This document shows, piece by piece, positions 9,719 through 21,199 of a DNA stretch of 64,000 nucleotides; position 1 is the first letter of the stretch; every line of letters begins with the position of its first letter. The notes below the pieces were generated by a model, which saw only the letters and a list, made by a program, of their open reading frames with translations, searched no databases and was not told the DNA's origin. The stretch is from assembly GCA_900314355.1 (NCBI GenBank), contig OMUY01000096.1, positions 50,242 through 114,241 on the forward strand, given 5' to 3'. The position numbers were made by a program, and so were the translations under genes. This stretch comes from an uncultured Eubacteriales bacterium (GTDB lineage Bacteria; Bacillota; Clostridia; Oscillospirales; Acutalibacteraceae).

Positions 9719-10714
9719 TCAGTTGTCATCTGATGTAGCGCCCATAAGCTGAGCAAGCTGTAAGAGCGTCACTTTATTTTTTGAGAAGTTTGACGCATCG
9801 AAAAGCTTTGCAGTCACTTTGCTGCCGTAGAGGTATTCGCTGATTTCGATTTCGGAGTTTTCGTTTCCCTCTTTATCAACTGAAACAATGCTTGTCAAAG
9901 TGTCGTTTTTAAGGTTGAAAACAACTTCGCTACCGTCATCGGTTGTCATTATATATTTATAGTATACGTCGCCGTTTTCTTCTTTCTTGTAAGCTTTGTC
10001 CGGGTCTTTTTCAAGAGTCGGAATTGAAAGATCGCCCGTGAAATCCGAAATATTTATTCCGGAAGACGTTAATAGGGATTGCTGAATGTCGCAGTAAACT
10101 ACCGAACCGTCATTGGCGGTCAAAATAACCTGAATTATCTTGTCGGACGATTTTGTTACAAATCCCATAGTCTGATTGTTTGTCTGGGCTACCATAATCG
10201 AGTCTTTGTTTCTTGCGCCGAAAACGAAGCTCATTTTTTCATCGTCTGTTTTCATAGAGCCTACGATGTAATATTTTCCGTCTTTGAGATATTTGAGCGC
10301 ATCGGGGAGGGGAGTCGGATCTATTTCGGTCCACTCGGAAGCAGGCTCTTCAGATGACGGCTCTTCTGTTGCAGGTTCTTCTGTTGCAGGCTCTTCAGAT
10401 GACGGTTCTTCCGATGTATCCTCCTCGGAAGATGGTTCTTCCGTAACTTCTACTTTTTCTACGAGTCCGGCTGCCATTCTCAAAATTGTTCTCGCATCTG
10501 TTGCGGTTATTTTTCCGTTGCCGTCGATATCGGCTCTTATTAACTGATCTTTGTCGAGCGTGATAAGGCTCGCGGCGCATCTTAAAACCGTTCTCGCGTC
10601 TATCGCTGTAACTTTGTCGTTTTTGTCGACGTCTCCCATGAAATATGCGAAAGAAGATACGGATAAAATTACCGCGACAATAACGGACAAAACCGCTGTC
10701 AATTTTTTCTTCAT
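9719..10714 (-). CDS. Secreted protein with N-terminal dockerin
   Basis: This is a 331-residue exported protein. A signal peptide (first ~24 residues) is followed at once by a type I-like dockerin with two calcium-loop repeats (near residues 28-40 'GDVDKNDKVTAIDAR' and 62-74 'ADIDGNGKITATDAR'). A Glu/Ser/Pro linker of repeated 'EEPSSEE'/'EEPATEE' follows, then a C-terminal domain of about 190 residues rich in predicted beta strands with no recognised family. Placing the dockerin directly after the signal peptide is unusual, as dockerins are normally C-terminal. The paralogue at 10865 has the same architecture and an alignable C-terminal pattern ('SEYLYGSKV' against 'SDFIYGGNL'). It should attach to a cohesin such as the one at 54798; the function of the C-terminal domain is unknown. 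Confidence 0.82.
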   Translation of the reverse strand: MKKKLTAVLSVIVAVILSVSSFAYFMGDVDKNDKVTAIDARTVLRCAASLITLDKDQLIRADIDGNGKITATDARTILRMAAGLVEKVEVTEEPSSEEDTSEEPSSEEPATEEPATEEPSSEEPASEWTEIDPTPLPDALKYLKDGKYYIVGSMKTDDEKMSFVFGARNKDSIMVAQTNNQTMGFVTKSSDKIIQVILTANDGSVVYCDIQQSLLTSSGINISDFTGDLSIPTLEKDPDKAYKKEENGDVYYKYIMTTDDGSEVVFNLKNDTLTSIVSVDKEGNENSEIEISEYLYGSKVTAKLFDASNFSKNKVTLLQLAQLMGATSDDN

Positions 10715-10864: not shown

Positions 10865-11908
10865 TTATTCGGTATCTATTCCGAGATCCGAGAAAAAGCT
10901 GATTATTCCTTCCTTTTCGTAGCCGTCTACTGAAAAATATGAATCGGGAAGATTGCCGCCGTAAATAAAATCGCTTATATATACTATTTCCTGACAGTTG
11001 CCGTACGCATCGTAAACTTCAATTCTTTTAAGATTGCCGTCCGAAGCCTTGAATAAAGCGTAGCTTTTGTCAACCGAACTTACGTATTTGTAAACTCTAT
11101 GAATTTTTCCGTTTGACGCAGCCTCTGTTTCAACAGAATCATATGTCATTGAAGTTACTCCGCCGATAGAGCTTACCGATTCTGTCAGCTCGCTTAAATC
11201 TATTCCGGCTGCCTTTGCGATTGTTTCGCTCACTTCAAAATATATCTTTTTGCCACCGGAAGATATGCCGCGCATATAAAGTTTAGCAGTAGTTTTTTCC
11301 TTGCCGAGGATTTTTGAAGTTGTGGATTTAATCAATACAGTAACAGGTTTGCCGCTCATCTCTGTTTCGAGTACGAGGTCTTTTCCGTTTAACGCGTAAT
11401 CAATGGCGTTGTTCGCGTTTGAATCTGTAATACTTCCTTTAAGTCTGTATCTCGATGAAAGGAACGCCTCAATCTGTTCTTTTTCCTTCTCCTCGTCTGT
11501 TTTTTCAGATTTTGTTGTTTCTTCTGTCGTTTTTTCCTCTGTTGAAGGTTCTTCAGTGACGGGTTCTTCTGTCGTGCTTTCTTCGGTTGTCGGCTGTTTT
11601 GTCGTATTTTCCTCGGACGAAGTTTCTTCGCCTACTTCTATAAAATCTTCGAGGTGAGCCGACATTCTCAAAGCTTTTCTCGCATCGCCCGCAGTTATTT
11701 TTCCGTTGCCGTCTACGTCAGCTCTTTTCATCTGCTCTTCGTTGTCAAACGTGCTCAGCTTCGCCGACACTCTGAGTATCGCCCTCGCGTCTACAGCGGT
11801 GACTTTTCCGTCGATATTTACGTCCCCCAAAAGATAAGCGTACGACGAAAACGCCGTAACCGCGGCAAGAATTAAAGATAAAGCAATCGCCGGTATTCTC
11901 TTTTTCAT
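10865..11908 (-). CDS. Secreted protein with N-terminal dockerin (paralogue)
   Basis: This 347-residue protein shares the architecture of its downstream neighbour: signal peptide, two dockerin calcium loops ('GDVNIDGKVTAVDAR' and 'ADVDGNGKITAGDAR'), a Thr/Glu-rich linker built of 'TTEEPS/VTEEP' units, and a C-terminal domain of about 190 residues. The C-terminal domain is Lys/Ser/beta-rich and weakly recalls LolA-like lipoprotein-carrier sheets, but I do not claim that family. The pair most likely arose by tandem duplication, and each has its own terminator. There is no catalytic motif, so these may be structural or carbohydrate-binding partners in a cohesin-dockerin assembly. Confidence 0.82.
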   Translation of the reverse strand: MKKRIPAIALSLILAAVTAFSSYAYLLGDVNIDGKVTAVDARAILRVSAKLSTFDNEEQMKRADVDGNGKITAGDARKALRMSAHLEDFIEVGEETSSEENTTKQPTTEESTTEEPVTEEPSTEEKTTEETTKSEKTDEEKEKEQIEAFLSSRYRLKGSITDSNANNAIDYALNGKDLVLETEMSGKPVTVLIKSTTSKILGKEKTTAKLYMRGISSGGKKIYFEVSETIAKAAGIDLSELTESVSSIGGVTSMTYDSVETEAASNGKIHRVYKYVSSVDKSYALFKASDGNLKRIEVYDAYGNCQEIVYISDFIYGGNLPDSYFSVDGYEKEGIISFFSDLGIDTE

Positions 11909-14189: not shown

Positions 14190-14732
14190 TTACTCGTTTG
14201 TGGGTTCAAGAAGACCGTAGCCTCCGTTCGAGCGTTTGTAGACTACCGAAATCTCATCCGTCGCCGAATTTCTGAACATGTAAAACTCGTGTCCGAGCAG
14301 ATTCATCTGAAGAATTGCTTCATCAACCGACTGCGGTTTGACCGCAATGTTTTTAGTTCTGACTACTTCGTAATCCGTCTCGTCAACTACGTTGTCCGGT
14401 GCGCCCTGCTCCGGCGTGATAAGATCGTCGATAGATCCGGATTTAAGTCTTTTTTCGAGCTTTGTCTTGTTCTTTCTGATCTGACGGATAAGCGTGTCAA
14501 CGCATTTGTCAAGAGCTTCGGAGAGATCGTCGGCTTTTTCCTGAGCTCTGAAAATCATTCCCTTGTTGCTGATTGTAATCTCAACTTCTTTGAATTTTTT
14601 TTCAGCAGTGGCGACAATTTTCGCCGAAGCGTCAGGTCCGAAGAAACGCTCTATTTTTTTGAGCTTTTTCTCCGCTCTCTGCTTGAAATCTTCTCTTGGT
14701 GAACATTTTCTGCCGGTAATTGTAATATTCAT
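14190..14732 (-). CDS. hpf: Ribosome hibernation promoting factor, long form
   Basis: This is a 180-residue long-form HPF/RaiA. The N-terminal S30AE domain (~1-100) begins 'MNITITGRK' and binds in the decoding region of the 30S subunit. The C-terminal domain (~122-178, 'VRTKNIAVKPQSVDEAILQMNLLGH') drives ribosome dimerisation to 100S. The length matches the long form typical of Firmicutes. A promoter with 17-bp spacing and a GGAAAGGCGG site precede it. It lies directly downstream of, and on the same strand as, the capsid cassette, but a terminator at 14827 and its own promoter separate the two. Confidence 0.95.
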   Translation of the reverse strand: MNITITGRKCSPREDFKQRAEKKLKKIERFFGPDASAKIVATAEKKFKEVEITISNKGMIFRAQEKADDLSEALDKCVDTLIRQIRKNKTKLEKRLKSGSIDDLITPEQGAPDNVVDETDYEVVRTKNIAVKPQSVDEAILQMNLLGHEFYMFRNSATDEISVVYKRSNGGYGLLEPTNE

Positions 14733-14813: not shown

Positions 14814-14850
14814 TAAAAAATATCTCATGCGGATAAGCAGTTCTCCGCAT
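14814..14850 (-). terminator. Terminator of the capsid cassette
   Basis: TGCGGA / TCCGCA stem with a 10-nt loop, followed on the minus strand by GAGATATTTTTTAC, 40 bp beyond the last cassette gene. Confidence 0.7.
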
Positions 14851-14888
14851 CAAACATTCACTGTAAATTACAGCCCGGCAGGACTTTT

Positions 14889-15251
14889 TTATATCTTGAC
14901 TTTAAATTTGGCGGATATTGATTTGCAGTTTAATTCGGATGAATATTTCATTCTGCCGGACGTAAAATTATCCGCTTTTATCTCATCTGAAAAAATTTTG
15001 TTTTTTACTGATTCCAGCGTTTTGAGCGCATCTGTTTCGGAATTTGCCATAGGTTCCAATAAATCTATTTTTATAACGGCGAAACTTTCTTCACTGGCGA
15101 ACTCCGCGGAATAAAGCGTGAAAACGAGCGTTTCATTATCGATAAAATCGGATTTGCCGCCGGGGTAGCCTTCAATTATGACTTTGCCTGAAAATTGTTC
15201 GTCTGATTTGAAAACTGATATGTAATTTTGAATTAAATTCGATAAGTTCAT
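14889..15251 (-). CDS. Small phage neck/tail-completion-like protein
   Basis: This is a 120-residue soluble protein, the last gene of the capsid cassette. The sequence starts 'MNLSNLIQNYISVF' and continues as mixed alpha/beta. Size, position after a connector and a head-closure-like gene, and the pattern of a short N-terminal helix then strands resemble tail-terminator or minor tail proteins of siphoviruses, but I recognise no specific family. A good site (AGAAAGGA) precedes the ATG and the gap to the upstream gene is 19 bp, so it is cotranscribed. No tail tube, tape-measure or baseplate gene follows. Confidence 0.5.
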   Translation of the reverse strand: MNLSNLIQNYISVFKSDEQFSGKVIIEGYPGGKSDFIDNETLVFTLYSAEFASEESFAVIKIDLLEPMANSETDALKTLESVKNKIFSDEIKADNFTSGRMKYSSELNCKSISAKFKVKI

Positions 15252-15270
15252 TTTGTCCTTTCTAAAAAAA

Positions 15271-15603
15271 TCAGAATTTTCTTATTACAGACCTGAAATA
15301 TACCGCCTCTTGCCCGAAATACACGTTTTCGGTCTTGATAATTCTGTATTTTTCTCCGCCTGTAATAAGTGTTCCGTTTTCCGCCAGATTAATCGGAAGC
15401 GACGAAGGAGAGCGAACCTCTAAATATTTTTCTCCGTCAAGTCCGTTAATCAGGGCATTGGTTTTTACATACATCTTGTTTTTGTATCTGAGCGGTGAAA
15501 TAATCGCTTTCCCTTCTCCGATTTTTTCGCCGCCGGAGACATATATTTCAACAGTTCTACCGTACTTTGTTGTCTCGATTTCAATAATTTTTTTTAAATC
15601 CAT
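15271..15603 (-). CDS. Small phage head-closure-like protein
   Basis: This is a 110-residue protein if translation begins at the ATG at 15603 ('MDLKKIIEIETT'). An in-frame TTG at 15657 would add 18 residues. Neither start has a convincing ribosome binding site. The sequence is beta-rich ('GRTVEIYVSGGEKIGEG', 'GGEKYRIIKTENV', 'AVYFRSVIRKF') and resembles phage head-closure/neck proteins such as the SPP1 gp16 type, which are beta-barrels of similar length with a strand ending in a basic C-terminus. The call relies mainly on size, fold impression and position between a connector-like and a tail-completion-like gene. Confidence 0.5.
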   Translation of the reverse strand: MDLKKIIEIETTKYGRTVEIYVSGGEKIGEGKAIISPLRYKNKMYVKTNALINGLDGEKYLEVRSPSSLPINLAENGTLITGGEKYRIIKTENVYFGQEAVYFRSVIRKF

Positions 15604-15664
15604 TGTAATGTGATTGTTTTTTTTAATGAAAGAGTTTTCCGACTGCCCGTAAATCAATAAATCA

Positions 15665-15697
15665 AGCCGTCCGAAATTTTACGTTTGACGGACGGCT
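15665..15697 (-). other. Internal hairpin in the capsid cassette
   Basis: A perfect 9-bp inverted repeat (AGCCGTCCG / CGGACGGCT) lies between the connector-like and head-closure-like genes. On the minus strand it is followed by TTGATTTATTGATTT, a weak U tract. It may lower expression of the last two genes relative to the capsid genes. Confidence 0.5.
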
Positions 15698-15732
15698 CGA
15701 AATTAAAAAAACGGAAATAAATTATATTTTCG

Positions 15733-16080
15733 TCATACCGTTTTTATTTCAAATGAGTTTTTCATATATACGGCGGTTCTTTTGAAAGACTCGTTTTTTA
15801 TTGATTCAAAATTTTTCAACTGCGCATTAATGTCTTTTTCTGCCGATACGTCGCCCGATTTGAATTTTACAACGCAGTCATCTTTTTCAGACTTCAAATA
15901 AAGACATACGGCGTCTGCGGCGGCTGCGAAAACAACCGGTTCGAGAGAAGAATATTCATCTTTAATAAGTTCTTCCGATAAAAACGCCGCGCTGAGCTCG
16001 CAGAAATTCATAAGTTTTGCGTTGTCATCAGCTGTGAAAAACGTCTGCGCCTTTGAAAATACTTTTTTACTGTCTATCAT
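15733..16080 (-). CDS. Phage head-tail connector-like protein
   Basis: This is a 115-residue, mostly alpha-helical protein. Its start overlaps the stop of the major capsid gene by 4 bp (ATGA), which indicates coupled translation. The pattern of a helical N-terminal half with many Ala ('VVFAAAADAVCLYL') and a loop with Lys/Asp resembles head-tail connector / head-completion proteins (HK97 gp6 type), which are about 100 residues, helical and encoded immediately after the major capsid protein. The family call rests on this gene order and fold impression, not on a diagnostic motif. Confidence 0.55.
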   Translation of the reverse strand: MIDSKKVFSKAQTFFTADDNAKLMNFCELSAAFLSEELIKDEYSSLEPVVFAAAADAVCLYLKSEKDDCVVKFKSGDVSAEKDINAQLKNFESIKNESFKRTAVYMKNSFEIKTV

Positions 16081-17078
16081 GCCAAAAGCAGTTTGACGGC
16101 CGCTCCTGAGAAAAGCTTTGAAAATCCGTACGTCGCCGTTATAGCCGTTCTCTCGAGCTGCCTTGAAATCAGTTTGTCATATTCCGTAGTTATTGAACCG
16201 GAGTCGACCTCTTCAAGCGCGCATGACGAGTCTATTCCGAGTATAACGTTATCGGAAACAGATGACGAGATGATCATTTTCGCTCCGAAAGGAGTTATCA
16301 TTTTTCCCGTAGAAGTGAAATCAAACCCGGAGTGAGCATCCTTAAATTCATCAATATTCAGTACAGCCGCCGCAGTTGACGGGGAGACAATAATGGATGT
16401 GAGTTTGTATGGTCTCATATGAGTAAAAAGATTTATTAAATCAGAATATTTGAAATCATTTTCCGCGTAAATATCGGGTGCCGGATTTTCGTTTCCGTCG
16501 CCGAAAATAAGCGTATTTACGGCGCTCTTAGCCTTTGACACGGCAATGTATGCGCCTATTTGCCTGAGCATTACCGAAAATACGTCAAGGCGCTGTGTTC
16601 TGACAGCTTCGTAAGACGATACAAGCATTCTGCCGGATTTCTGAAGTTTTACAAGATTTTCCTTTGTTGTAATTTTCGTTTCAGGTATGAAAGAACCCTC
16701 CGTCACGGTTTTAAGCTCCATATCGCTGTCCGACGGCTCGGATGTTAGCGAACGGTAGTCAAGGCCGTTTATATCGGTTCTGACTGCGACGATATCGGGA
16801 AGAATATCATTTTCCTCGACCCCGGCTCTGACAGCGTTTGCGATAAATTCCGGAAAAAGGGCGGACGACTCGGATGTCTGAAAGAATTTTTCCACAAGAT
16901 CCGAATTTCTTCCGGCGACTTTGATGTCAAATCTTTTCAGCTGTCTTTGAAAAGCCGTCGTGTTTTCAAGACTTGTGCCCTTGTAATTTTCATCCGGGTC
17001 AAGCTTGTTTAAAGTCTTTAAAAATCCGTCGTTTGACGAATAGAATGATTTATCGAGTTTTAAATTATCGTAAGACAT
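16077..17078 (-). CDS. HK97-fold-like phage major capsid protein
   Basis: This is a 333-residue protein in the position and with the features of an HK97-type major capsid protein. The N-terminal ~60 residues are polar. The middle pattern 'LKTVTEGSFIPETKITTKENLVKL', followed by 'LVSSYEAVR', is the strand pair plus spine-helix entry typical of these proteins. The spine helix ends in 'AYIAVSKAKSAVNTLIFGDG', the A-domain has 'SIIVSPSTAAAVLN', and the C-terminal strand is 'TAITATYGFSKL'. AAGGAGGT, a perfect ribosome binding site, implies high expression. It follows a small decoration-like gene (19 bp) and a prohead protease gene. No encapsulin-type cargo enzyme is adjacent. Confidence 0.75.
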   Translation of the reverse strand: MSYDNLKLDKSFYSSNDGFLKTLNKLDPDENYKGTSLENTTAFQRQLKRFDIKVAGRNSDLVEKFFQTSESSALFPEFIANAVRAGVEENDILPDIVAVRTDINGLDYRSLTSEPSDSDMELKTVTEGSFIPETKITTKENLVKLQKSGRMLVSSYEAVRTQRLDVFSVMLRQIGAYIAVSKAKSAVNTLIFGDGNENPAPDIYAENDFKYSDLINLFTHMRPYKLTSIIVSPSTAAAVLNIDEFKDAHSGFDFTSTGKMITPFGAKMIISSSVSDNVILGIDSSCALEEVDSGSITTEYDKLISRQLERTAITATYGFSKLFSGAAVKLLLA

Positions 17079-17097
17079 CTTAAACCTCCTTATTATT

Positions 17098-17448
17098 TTA
17101 CATTAATATGTCGGACATTTCTCCGCCGGCGCCTAAATTTAACACAAAGCACGGTCTGCCGTTTTCGTCGGCTTTTACTTTGCCGTCGGATGAAATACTC
17201 AGTTTGTAATATCCCGGCGATTTTATTGAAGACGTATCTAAATCTACTTTTATTGCGCCTGCGGTCTGTACAGAACAACAGCCCGAGTTTTTGTCTATAT
17301 AAATAGCTGTGCCGAATAAAGGTCCTGCCGAATTTGAAACCGTATCGGCAGCCGTGAGCGACAGCGGACATCCCACGCTCAGAGAACCCGAATATCTCAT
17401 TGTGACCGCGTTTTCGCCGTAGCCCGAATAATCTAAATTAACTGACAT
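17098..17448 (-). CDS. Small beta-rich capsid decoration-like protein
   Basis: This is a 116-residue protein beginning 'MSVNLDYSGYGENAVTMR', with Gly/Ser/Ala-rich strands and no signal peptide. Placement between the prohead protease and the major capsid gene is that of phage head-decoration or capsid-stabilising proteins (lambda gpD-like or DUF2190-like in many phages), which are 110-150 residues and beta-rich. I see no diagnostic motif. Two adjacent Cys ('GCCSV') are unusual for a cytoplasmic particle protein. A strong site (AGAGGAGG) precedes the ATG. Confidence 0.5.
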   Translation of the reverse strand: MSVNLDYSGYGENAVTMRYSGSLSVGCPLSLTAADTVSNSAGPLFGTAIYIDKNSGCCSVQTAGAIKVDLDTSSIKSPGYYKLSISSDGKVKADENGRPCFVLNLGAGGEMSDILM

Positions 17449-17526
17449 TTTTTCCTCCTCTGATTTTCCGTAAATTAACGATTAAAAATAATTTCCTTAC
17501 GGCTTTATTTGCCGGCGTCTTTTTTG

Positions 17527-18474
17527 TCATATTTTGTAGTCCGAAAGACTTGCGCCGCTGTCGGGTGATGTTTCCTTTTGAGGATAACATGATAAATTTT
17601 TCTTTTCATATTCTTCGGTCAAGAACTTTACGGAATTGCAGTCAAGATTTGATATAAAATCTTTTGTCTTGTCTAAATCGAATTCCGGCTCGAAAAACAT
17701 CATGTACCTGAAAAGCTTTTTCCTGTCGGCGCTCGAATTACGGGCTTTTTCAAATCTCAGCTTTTCTATCTCTCTTTCGGCATTTTCAAGTTTTAAAAGA
17801 AGTTCCGGATATTCCGAGTCAGCCGTTTTTTCCTCGTACAAAACGGAATTTATGTTTTTCCCGTTTTTTTGTCTGCCTATGCTTTTGGTAACGCCTGCGT
17901 TTTTCTGCGCCGGCACAGCGACAAAAGAAAATTCATACGCATCCATCGGGTTTTTCATAATACCGGCCGAGTAGACGCCTTTGTAGATTTTGCCCGGGAT
18001 ATGGGAACATTCTCCGAAATTTTTTCCGCAGACGGAACACTCTATTTTTTCTACCGACAGTCCTACGCTGACCTCTTTTTTAATCCCTCCGTCGATATCC
18101 GAAATCAGGTTTTTATTCTCGTCTGTTCTGAGCATGTATGCCCACGCCTTCAGATATCGGTAATCCCTGCCGAATTTGTTCTTTTTCTCGGGAACCGTTA
18201 CGACCTCTGTCTTGTAAATCCTGCAGAATTGATCTTCCGAAAGTCCCGAATGATTTTTTATCCCCGTGACGCCGAGAAAAAGATTTTTCATTTTTTCGAG
18301 CGCGCCGTCGTCGAACGCCTCAAAATCTCTGTCAACGTCGTTGTCGCAGAGTACAACCGAAAAAGTGTACACTTCGTTTTCATCAAGCTTTTTCTTTGAG
18401 TATTTGTTGATAAGCTCGATGTCTCCGCCGTCTTCTCTGCTGATGCTTAAATTTTTGCTTATCTGGAATTCCAT
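17527..18474 (-). CDS. Phage prohead protease-like protein with C-terminal coiled coil
   Basis: This is a 315-residue protein resembling HK97-type prohead maturation proteases fused to a scaffold-like tail. The N-terminal domain (~30-200) has 'YTFSVVLCDNDVDRDFE', then 'GVTGIKNHSG' with the candidate catalytic His, then 'KKEVSVGLSVEKIEC' with the candidate Ser, and ends in 'AYEFSFVAVPAQKNAGV', a pattern I associate with these proteases. Four Cys/His residues ('CSVCGKNFGECSH') could bind zinc. Residues ~235-265 form a heptad-like coiled coil that may act as scaffold. GGGAGGG precedes the ATG. It is the first gene of the cassette; no portal or terminase lies upstream. Confidence 0.68.
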   Translation of the reverse strand: MEFQISKNLSISREDGGDIELINKYSKKKLDENEVYTFSVVLCDNDVDRDFEAFDDGALEKMKNLFLGVTGIKNHSGLSEDQFCRIYKTEVVTVPEKKNKFGRDYRYLKAWAYMLRTDENKNLISDIDGGIKKEVSVGLSVEKIECSVCGKNFGECSHIPGKIYKGVYSAGIMKNPMDAYEFSFVAVPAQKNAGVTKSIGRQKNGKNINSVLYEEKTADSEYPELLLKLENAEREIEKLRFEKARNSSADRKKLFRYMMFFEPEFDLDKTKDFISNLDCNSVKFLTEEYEKKNLSCYPQKETSPDSGASLSDYKI

Positions 18475-18582
18475 TTCAACCCTCCCTGCAATTAAAGGCG
18501 GTACTGTATTTTAAATTTCCGTTTTTTGCGTCAATTTGAAACATTTTTTGAAAAATATTTCAAAAATTAAGATAAAAAGAAA

Positions 18583-18608
18583 ACTGTCGGATTAAAGAAT
18601 CTGACAGT
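18583..18608. terminator. Hairpin upstream of the capsid cassette
   Basis: ACTGTCGGATT / AATCTGACAGT stem (one wobble). It is followed on the minus strand by TTCTTTTTATC and on the plus strand by CGAATTTTTTATTT. Together with the next terminator it insulates the cassette from the dockerin gene, so the cassette must have its own promoter in the about 100 bp before 18474; none was clear. Confidence 0.65.
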
Positions 18609-18633
18609 CGAATTTTTTATTTGGACGAAACAT

Positions 18634-18666
18634 AAAAAAAGCCGGGCGCCCTTTCGGACGTCCGAC
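18634..18666 (-). terminator. Terminator of the 18.7-kb dockerin gene
   Basis: GC-rich stem GTCGGACGTCC / GGGCGCCCGGC with GAAA loop, followed on the minus strand by T7. Confidence 0.85.
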
Positions 18667-18697
18667 CTTTGTATTCTGTTTTTGCTTCGTTTAAAAC

Positions 18698-21199
18698 TTA
18701 TTTATTTTCTATTGGTAAGGACGAAATAAGTTTTGCGGATAATCTGAGGACTAATCTCGCGTCTACGGCATTTACTTTGCCGTCTCCGTTTACATCGCAG
18801 CGAACGATCTGATCCGCGTCAAATGTTACGAGTTTTGCAGAACATCTGAGCACAAGTCTCGCGTCTACGGCATTCACTTTGCCGTCGCCATTCGCGTCGC
18901 CGTAAAGTATATTGACAGGCTTATCCGAAGAGGGTTCTTCTTTTGAAGTCGGCTCTTTTTTGGAAGTGGGCTCATCTTTGGAAGTGGGCTCTTTTTTGGA
19001 AGTGGGCTCTTCTTTGGAATCTATAGCAAGAGGATCGCTTGTCTTTGTAGCGCTGAGATATTTGCCTGACTTAGCGTCGTAAGAAGATATTTTGTATCCT
19101 GCCGACCAGTAAGTAGCCTTATGCTCCGCGTTTGACTTAGTATTGTCTGTGTGCTCCAACAGAGCGAAGAGAAGAGAATCTACAGTCTTTATTGTGGAAG
19201 ATACGAGAGGATTGTTGAACGGATTGTCCGCATTTGTATTTGTGTAGAATACCTTGAGGAGATCTTCCGACTTTACATCTGTGATAGCAGGGAAGAGCTT
19301 GTTCATGAAGAAGTTTTCGGTGTCGAATGTGAATGTAGCGTCATCGCCTGCGCCGTTGAGGAATGAGAGCGAGAAGAGTTCATTGAGAACTACGTCAAGT
19401 TTGTAGAACGGGCCGTAAGAAGAATCCGCAAGACCGTCGGCTACAGCGGGAACGCCTTTGATGTAGTTGAGAGCCCAGTTGACAATGTCATCAAGTTCTT
19501 CCGTCCATTCGGATTTGTACGAAGCCGTGTAGTTTGTGGATTTGTCAAGCCAGTATTCGGCAACTTTCATTCCGATGGAAGCTATCTCGTCATAATACTT
19601 CGCCTGACTTAAGTTCTTGACCACTCCGTTGTTCATTGTGGCTTTTTCAAAATCGGAAAGCTTAACTGTAGCAGCCTGATCGGGCATCCATTTTGATACC
19701 GCGGCGTCAACTGCGAGAACCGCCATTTTTTCAAGAGAATCCGCAGCCTTGAGTCCGTCGTTTGAGACATATGAGCCGAACCATCCGGGGTAGAACATCT
19801 TGAGAACTTCTACCGCCATCTGCTCGGATGTCATAGCGTTTACAGTAGCGTCATTTGCAAATTTGGAGAAATCATAGCCGTAGAATTTTCCGCCGTTTGT
19901 TGTGGCGAATGTCTTAAGGGCGTATCCCAATAATTTTCTGATGTTTGAGTCAAGCTTTGAGTTGTCGCCTTTTTCAAGAGCTGTAGCTTTCTTAGCGTCT
20001 GATGTGAGAAGAGTATTTACGAGGTCTACAAGTATGTTGTTGATTGACTCCGCTATGCCGGCGGACGCGTATGACGAGAAGTCAATGGTGCTGTTTGTGA
20101 ATTTGTATCCTTTAACGTCTACTATCTTTTCAACGACAGCCTTTACCTCGGGAGCTTTTTCGAGAGCTTTTGTAAGAGTATCTTTTAAGTTTACGTTGAG
20201 AGCGTCAACTGCATATGTCTCGTAAGCTGCCTGACCGTATTTGCCGATGAGCTGAGCGAGATTCATTTTGAGAGCCGCATCGCACTCGTCTTTGGAAACA
20301 GTGAGAACTTTCTTGTTCGCTCCGCCCTTTGTGTAGTCCTTGTTGGTTGCAACGTTTACAAGAGCTGCGGCAAGAAGCTCGTCTGCTGTGTAAGAAGCGT
20401 AATCGGAATCCGCATAAGCCGTTTTAATAACGTACTTCGTCTTTCCGTCGTCCTGAACCTGAGCCGTCTTTTCAGCGAGAAGTCCCTCGTAGATAGCTTT
20501 CTTGATTAATGAACCGAGATTTGCGATCTGCTCGTTTACTTTTTTGATATCTACGGCTTTATCAATGGTTGATCCCATTGTAAAGTTGCCCGAAAGAGCA
20601 TGCTCTACCAACGTCTTTGTTTTGCTTGAGCCGAGGAATTTGAACACGTCCATGATTATCGTGTAATCATTTGAACTGCTTCTCTGGATTGCGTTCTTTC
20701 CCGATTTGAACATTGTTACGTCGAGATACTGAAGGTCGCCGTATGTCTTTTTGCCTGAAACAAGGTTTCCTGCCAAGACAAGAGTGTTGAGTATTCCGTT
20801 TACGCTGTTGAGATCGATTTTCGGAATGAGTGTTCTTACGATGCTCGGAATCTTGGAGTTCAGATTTGCGTCAGCTAAAGCCTTGTCGGCGTAGTTGAGA
20901 AGCGAGGTGGCGAGCTGCTGGGAAGTGGCCGTGTTGTAGTCAATTCCGTCAGCTTTCGCCTGCTCCTGAAGAGCTTTGACGAATGTGAACGAGAGATTGA
21001 GAGCGGTGGGAGTTATTTCGTCGCCTCTGTCTGAAATATCGGTAAGAAGCTGTGTCGCGACAACTTGTAAGTTGTCGAGCGAAAGGTAAGCTTCAACCGA
21101 TTCGGTGTTTCTGTCAGCCGCCATTGAACTCATCGGTACAGATGCTAACATCAAAACGACAGACATGATTACCGCAATGATTTTTGTGGATCTTTTCAT
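18698..21199 (-). CDS. Large secreted protein with C-terminal dockerin
   Basis: This is an 833-residue exported protein. A signal peptide (cleavage near 'SSMAADRN') leads into a ~680-residue helical region of unknown family with many Ala/Leu/Lys and short repeats of the type 'LADA.L..KIP' and 'DSLLFALLEHTDN'. A linker of tandem 'EPTSK(K/D/E)' units follows, then a C-terminal dockerin with two near-identical loops ('GDANGDGKVNAVDAR', 'CDVNGDGKVNAVDAR'). No glycosidase motif was recognised. The gene is preceded by a ~200-nt leader with its own promoter at 21415-21443 and ended by a strong terminator. Cohesin binding is a firm expectation from the dockerin; the role of the large domain is unknown. 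Confidence 0.82.
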   Translation of the reverse strand: MKRSTKIIAVIMSVVLMLASVPMSSMAADRNTESVEAYLSLDNLQVVATQLLTDISDRGDEITPTALNLSFTFVKALQEQAKADGIDYNTATSQQLATSLLNYADKALADANLNSKIPSIVRTLIPKIDLNSVNGILNTLVLAGNLVSGKKTYGDLQYLDVTMFKSGKNAIQRSSSNDYTIIMDVFKFLGSSKTKTLVEHALSGNFTMGSTIDKAVDIKKVNEQIANLGSLIKKAIYEGLLAEKTAQVQDDGKTKYVIKTAYADSDYASYTADELLAAALVNVATNKDYTKGGANKKVLTVSKDECDAALKMNLAQLIGKYGQAAYETYAVDALNVNLKDTLTKALEKAPEVKAVVEKIVDVKGYKFTNSTIDFSSYASAGIAESINNILVDLVNTLLTSDAKKATALEKGDNSKLDSNIRKLLGYALKTFATTNGGKFYGYDFSKFANDATVNAMTSEQMAVEVLKMFYPGWFGSYVSNDGLKAADSLEKMAVLAVDAAVSKWMPDQAATVKLSDFEKATMNNGVVKNLSQAKYYDEIASIGMKVAEYWLDKSTNYTASYKSEWTEELDDIVNWALNYIKGVPAVADGLADSSYGPFYKLDVVLNELFSLSFLNGAGDDATFTFDTENFFMNKLFPAITDVKSEDLLKVFYTNTNADNPFNNPLVSSTIKTVDSLLFALLEHTDNTKSNAEHKATYWSAGYKISSYDAKSGKYLSATKTSDPLAIDSKEEPTSKKEPTSKDEPTSKKEPTSKEEPSSDKPVNILYGDANGDGKVNAVDARLVLRCSAKLVTFDADQIVRCDVNGDGKVNAVDARLVLRLSAKLISSLPIENK

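Follow-up and report, generated by a model that had tools for sequence, protein, structure and literature searches.

Phage-head genes at two separate loci in an Acutalibacteraceae genome: a candidate domesticated, gene transfer agent-like capsid

The stretch of DNA analysed here (64,000 nucleotides, referred to as the window) comes from an uncultured Eubacteriales bacterium of the Acutalibacteraceae and carries, on the minus strand at 14889-18474, a phage head module of six intact genes with no internal stops. An initial annotation of the window had recognised these as open genes in the order of a phage head module, and this description stands, the major capsid protein (MCP), the protease and the decoration protein being identified by library matches and the other three by position. 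Each was also scored with hidden Markov models (HMMs) built from the proteins of relatives, with the window excluded. The first gene (17527-18474) encodes a prohead protease-scaffold of 315 residues that belongs to phrog_16951, a family without a named function (E=1.2e-80; HMM score 320 bits). It is followed by a head decoration or virion structural protein of 116 residues (17098-17448; phrog_4588 'virion structural protein', E=3.9e-8; 56 bits) and an HK97-fold MCP of 333 residues (16077-17078; phrog_3922 'major head protein', E=1.2e-86; Pfam PF25209, E=4.9e-12; 484 bits). The genes assigned by position are head-tail connector (HTC) D, of 115 residues (15733-16080; HTC HMM, 52 bits), head-closure protein (HC) E, of at most 128 residues from a TTG codon (15271-15657; HC HMM, 75 bits), and tail-completion or neck protein (TC) F, of 120 residues (14889-15251). 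Connector D had no match in Pfam or PHROGs, and E had none that was significant. F matched phrog_23114 (E=2.2e-4); the TC HMM from relatives did not match it, and its alignment with the positional counterpart in relatives was weak (hhalign E=9.8e-5, probability 58%).

Fold matches assign the MCP to the HK97 fold, in agreement with the earlier claim for the 333-residue protein. They include encapsulins and the structures 6tb9/6tsu, which we take to be the capsid of the gene transfer agent (GTA) RcGTA. The protease shares its fold with gp21, the capsid assembly protease of T4, and has in addition a helical C-terminal part; its H75, S136 and C146/C149/C156/H158 motif are invariant across 41 aligned proteins, including that of the window; the H and S are presumably the catalytic residues of such proteases. 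Sequence searches of the PDB gave a single chance-level match for the MCP (E=0.43) and none for the protease.

The start codon of D overlaps the MCP stop codon by 4 bp (16077-16080), and ribosome-binding sites precede four of the six genes (protease, decoration protein, MCP and F), so that the coupling and the sites for most genes described previously are both borne out. D is coupled to the MCP; E has no visible ribosome-binding site when read from the TTG, and may instead start at an ATG near 15603. A terminator belonging to the cassette had also been proposed, and this is borne out only in part. A candidate hairpin can be seen by eye 3' of F (14820-14855, minus strand), with a 7-bp stem and then a T-rich tail, but a terminator scan lists none there (8 terminator-like sites in total, against 5.2 expected). 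The intergenic region 5' of the cassette (18475-18697) holds a terminator-like hairpin on the plus strand (18583-18608). As reported, the cassette sits between hpf (14190-14732; Pfam S30AE) and a dockerin gene (18698-21199; Pfam Dockerin_1). The box GAACN4GTTC, which we take to be of LexA type, is absent from the 300 bases 5' of the cassette and occurs in 1 of 61 upstream regions, leaving SOS control of the module unsupported.

That the cassette lacks terminase and portal genes is true locally, but an intact pair is present elsewhere in the genome. Profiles of the large terminase subunit (TerL) and the portal, built from relatives, each found one match in the window's own genome (G000), and the two matches are adjacent on contig C25, where together with the small terminase subunit (TerS) they form an intact trio of ~2.6 kb between a sugar transporter gene and a nitroreductase gene. 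This trio accounts for the missing terminase and portal, and it rules out the stand-alone capsid that the initial annotation had inferred. C25 is 58.5 kb long and extends ~26.5 kb beyond the trio on one side and 29 kb on the other, and the 114.2-kb contig of the window cassette (C74) extends ~65 and 45.5 kb beyond the cassette; the shell and motor halves must therefore be at least about 72 kb apart. All nine head genes of the two halves are open in G000. TerL retains Walker A, Walker B and three nuclease motifs, which presumably serve ATPase and nuclease activity, both in G000 and in a sister genome of the same genus (G002). The portal of this lineage is shortened.

G002 is the sister of G000 in trees of Pnp, MCP, TerL, portal and protease, and its halves are also apart: the genes from protease to TC are on contig C242, with no portal within the 3.7 kb upstream of the protease, and the motor genes are on C48. 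The latter carries a TerS-like ORF, TerL and a portal, inside which the contig ends, beside a 74-residue gene of a type that stands 5' of the joined cluster in congeners. Elsewhere the head genes are joined. In 52 of the 55 loci from relatives, which include some near-duplicates, the TerL and portal genes are found on the strand of the MCP gene and no more than 8 kb from it. The exceptions are two contig-end cases and G002, and the joined order is TerS-TerL-portal-protease-decoration-MCP-HTC-HC-TC. The splits in G000 and G002 may represent one event with later moves. An ordinary prophage remnant, or an artefact of assembly or binning, could be suspected from the draft state of the assembly and from the shortness of the G002 contigs (3.7 and 7.2 kb). 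However, both G000 halves are deep inside long contigs, and the same MCP family is present in all 11 genomes of the genus and is under purifying selection; we regard either explanation as extremely improbable.

The reading that we favour, with a probability of about two in three, is that a domesticated, tailless phage head has been split in two, with its shell half in the window; this head would be GTA-like, maintained by the host and still under selection. Both halves are intact, and the sister genome is also split. The way in which the module would work is better supported than what the module is. The portal would serve as the base on which the protease-scaffold and MCP form a procapsid, TerL together with a shortened TerS would thread host DNA into the head without sequence preference, and D, E and F would plug the portal. 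The predicted product is a tailless, DNA-filled, GTA-like capsid, by analogy comparable with the roughly 40 nm tailless particles of FpGTA. A part of a GTA was one of the options raised at the outset.

The N-terminal domain of the long form of TerS, recognised by a Pfam Terminase_2 match, is missing in 22 of 61 TerS proteins, including those of both split genomes. Frames 5' of the annotated starts were searched too, so a misjudged start should not mask the domain. The count left out L086/L087 (copies of L088), L167/L170 (other terminase loci) and L155 (G182, a weak case), and some of the remaining loci are near-duplicates. Loss of this domain is at most suggestive of the packaging of random host DNA.

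Tail genes were counted at loci where MCP, LysM, hub and baseplate J matches lie on one strand, and loci that failed on strand or distance were dropped (for example L264, with a sheath and a second LysM match on the other strand). Sixty-three loci passed; a sheath HMM derived from only two sequences finds a sheath in 14 of them and none in 49. No ORF between MCP and LysM at these loci exceeds 398 residues, the length of the longest, so a tape measure of the usual size is absent. The baseplate J profile matched one of the 11 genomes in the genus of the window, G001, at five places that may be prophages (best E 9.5e-44), and the hub profile matched 0 of 11 in a search that had no positive control. 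By these two baseplate profiles the genus has no credible tail, whereas a baseplate accompanies the head module in many other genera. On a tree of the host marker Pnp for 32 genomes, 13 have a tail and 19 have none, a pattern that takes about five changes, with several nodes weakly supported; tail states were taken from strong baseplate J matches, and weak ones (G001, G013) were scored as tail-less. A further contig of G000, C82 (L188:1-8000), has prophage-type genes and is a possible tail donor; by reading, these include a ClpP-like protease, an HK97-type MCP of 401 residues (weak phrog_3922 match) and an 846-residue tape-measure-like protein.

The MCP family was found in 72 of 198 nearby genomes with a single-sequence query, one match in each and including 11 of 11 of the genus. 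With a profile it was found in 71 of 394 genomes of the order, spread over 43 of 169 genera and six family codes, with a single match in 69 of the 71. In a class sample it was found in 11 of 391 genomes, of which the 3 outside the order were weaker (E 8e-56 to 1e-26). We compared the histories of the head genes with that of Pnp by correlating distances against 500 shuffles (Mantel). The correlation was 0.70 for MCP (n=32) and 0.47 for TerL (n=31), reached in neither case by any shuffle, and 0.41 for the portal (n=31; 2/500). Four head genes in three close pairs gave 12 comparisons, of which one was saturated and the other 11 had a dN/dS of 0.05-0.21. In broad terms, then, the head genes share the history of the host marker, and purifying selection acts on the family. 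A full prophage in close relatives, together with dN/dS near 1, had been named as a finding that would tell against a maintained cassette; in place of a prophage the congeners have a head module of 9 genes that lacks tail genes, and the low dN/dS in close pairs, together with the open frames, upholds the earlier judgement that simple decay is not at work. A decayed prophage, with broken genes and dN/dS near 1, is accordingly disfavoured, although the dN/dS of the window's own lineage is poorly measured with dS near saturation.

Several observations weigh against a host-maintained head in this lineage. The protease tracks Pnp weakly (r 0.19, n=31, 27/500 shuffles). The genus forms a single clade in the Pnp tree, with all 11 of its tips, but not in the head-gene trees. 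There the smallest clade that holds it counts 12 tips in the MCP tree, 11 of them from the genus, and 12 and 13 tips in the protease and portal trees, with 10 from the genus in each case, and the TerL tree places G000/G002 at the base, far from their congeners. This may reflect long branches, and replacement is possible. For another pair, G004/G007 (L051, L047), dS is 0.13 for Pnp and 1.37 and 1.26 for TerL and portal, a contrast that hints at recombination or transfer of head genes within the genus. The MCP was not matched in 126 of the 198 genomes by the single-sequence query or in 323 of the 394 by the profile, which requires losses or patchy gain. The G000 draft is incomplete (86.2%, 106 contigs), and a tail may be encoded at an unassembled or diverged locus. 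Finally, all four head genes are fast in G000/G002 (excess distance 0.26-1.34, against 0.05-0.08 for Pnp); with the shorter portal, this makes relaxed selection or early decay possible, and dN/dS on the branch is itself poorly measured because dS is saturated or nearly so.

This fast evolution, which Pnp does not share, is the strongest evidence for a relic in early decay, in which a functional, joined, GTA-like ancestor would have been broken up in G000/G002 and would now be tail-less and drifting to loss with its frames still open. The shortened portal and TerS, the derivation of the split from a joined ancestor and the failure to find a tail all fit such a relic. On the other hand, nine of nine genes are open in G000 despite near-saturated synonymous divergence, the TerL motifs are intact in both genomes and the protease residues are invariant, G002 retains genes of both halves, and the slower-evolving congeners also keep tail-free modules. 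We therefore consider decay unlikely, while giving it some weight.

A satellite's helper set had also been suggested, and a capsid-forming phage-inducible chromosomal island (cf-PICI) would make its own head and borrow tails from a helper, for which the siphoprophage on C82 could serve. No integrase was seen beside either G000 half, and the flanks are of host families (10 proteins searched in Pfam and a partly overlapping set of 10 in PHROGs, together covering part of the flank ORFs). Host genes bordering each half, the presence of the MCP in all 11 genomes of the genus and the marker-like history of the module set it apart from such elements, which are marked by an integrase next to the head genes and a sporadic, mobile distribution, and a module at two loci cannot move as one unit. 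A satellite origin is accordingly disfavoured, to the point of being highly improbable. The 56 flank proteins of 8 same-genus loci gave one integrase-family match, which probably comes from a large serine recombinase encoded past a MatE gene at locus L055 of G005, and other single matches to DNA invertase, ParB-like and MazF-like families, among the 25 of 30 families listed. For 111 of 135 flank proteins at 17 tailed loci, the best 25 of 105 Pfam families are host-type; the PHROG tally of the same flanks (25 of 55 listed) includes endolysin (2 members), metallo-endopeptidase (2) and protease (4).

The domesticated capsid might have another job, as an encapsulin-like or a DNA-storing intracellular compartment. 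Encapsulins share the HK97 fold and are not known to have a portal or terminase. In the present case terminase, portal and connectors are kept and are conserved in relatives, a DNA motor would be needless in such a compartment, and the sequence family is that of phage heads; we consider this improbable. An encapsulin was rejected as a candidate: the shell has the HK97 fold, but TerL and portal are kept.

A published definition of GTAs (PMC9662315) lists caudoviricete-derived proteins, full endogenization, often at several loci, mostly vertical inheritance, packaging of mostly random host DNA, an own genome that cannot be fully packaged, and delivery to other cells. Three of these six are found here, namely caudoviricete ancestry, endogenization (at two loci in G000 and G002) and mostly vertical inheritance, the last with reservations raised by the weak protease correlation, the head-gene trees and the hint of recombination in G004/G007. 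The distance of at least about 72 kb between the halves bears on whether the element could package its own genome in full. The closest comparison is with FpGTA I/II of Faecalibacterium prausnitzii, described in PMC12946183 as ~40 nm capsids with no identifiable tails and no replication genes; in FpGTA I, ten ORFs running from TerS to MCP make up a single operon of 10.5 kb, and a second operon holds baseplate, fibre and lysis genes. The same paper names RCH50849.1 as the MCP and RCH50851.1 as the portal protein of F. prausnitzii ATCC 27766. By description, FpGTA resembles the present system in having a head operon with TerL, portal, scaffold and MCP, a TerS with no obvious DNA-binding domain, and two loci. 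In contrast to FpGTA I, the head module of the window's lineage is itself split, and no baseplate operon was found with the baseplate J and hub profiles. The host of FpGTA belongs to what we take to be the order of the window's host. A 16S primer used to single out Faecalibacterium among the genomes matched 0 of 394.

The TerS of RcGTA, too, is not known to carry a DNA-binding domain, and RcGTA has a tail. The module shares domesticated caudoviricete head genes, vertical inheritance and several loci with the RcGTA-like GTAs of Alphaproteobacteria, as PMC9662315 describes them, in addition to the fold match to 6tb9/6tsu. It differs in that no tail was found in the window's lineage. PBSX packages host DNA in a Gram-positive host, has a full contractile tail and is not known to transmit itself. 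The sheath-bearing relatives resemble it in their contractile-tail genes, but the relatives show no ORF of tape-measure size, and no credible baseplate was found in the genus of the window. PBSX, from Bacillus subtilis, is named in the FpGTA report (PMC12946183).

In the open PMC library we found no paper that pairs 'gene transfer agent' with Acutalibacteraceae or Oscillospirales. Few GTAs are known outside Alphaproteobacteria. The FpGTA report (PMC12946183, January 2026) presents its system as the first GTA to come from the human gut microbiome and as the second of GTA-like character among Gram-positive bacteria. Because the present family spans the order, is mostly single-copy and includes joined, tail-less and split members, it lends itself to studying in stages how a phage is converted into a host organ: in what order genes are lost, whether loss of the TerS domain also ends packaging specificity, and whether the host can use a head that has no tail. 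We suggest tentatively, as a conjecture that may well prove wrong, that tail loss is graded across the order, from sheath plus baseplate to baseplate, to no tail and to a split head, and that its end state is a truly tailless capsid for gene transfer or DNA export, which would carry random host DNA and hand it over by natural competence or with a borrowed prophage tail. If so, this handover would be a mode of transfer undescribed for tailed GTAs.

Eight records in a phage collection matched the family, five of them fecal contigs at 45-54% identity and three belonging to two named phages at ~26%. One 46.7 kb fecal record deposited as 'Bacteriophage sp.' (MT835508.1, L149) has SecY, S5 and L6 genes flanking the module and is bacterial chromosome carrying the head module, a warning that records filed as viral can be of this kind. 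The short viral-filed contigs (82 sequences, median about 10 kb) may often be bacterial chromosome too. The gene-order maps used throughout are HMM maps, as greedy ORF calling in the first clustering had lost some genes. One lone GTA-type MCP (L236:9992-10972; IMG/VR 3300032038_000365, 34.5 kb) lies in a genuine-looking siphophage, away from the phage's own head genes; this phage has its own MCP, replication and tail genes and a protease also of the phrog_16951 family. The lone gene may be a host capsid gene that the phage has captured and that possibly interferes, or else the product of a chimeric assembly.

At nine loci, mostly from different genera (L037, L039, L041, L043, L069, L072, L076, L077 and L083), the module is followed by one and the same GTPase gene, HflX-like by sequence and with Pfam GTP-bdg domains, marking a shared chromosomal site. 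Two of these loci, L039 and L041, come from the cultured relatives Anaeromassilibacillus sp. An250 and A. senegalensis and have baseplate genes as well as head genes. In the window, three proteins near the cassette contain dockerin-like repeats: two neighbouring paralogues (9719-10714 and 10865-11908), judged dockerin-like by eye, and the protein encoded at 18698-21199, which has the Pfam Dockerin_1 match.

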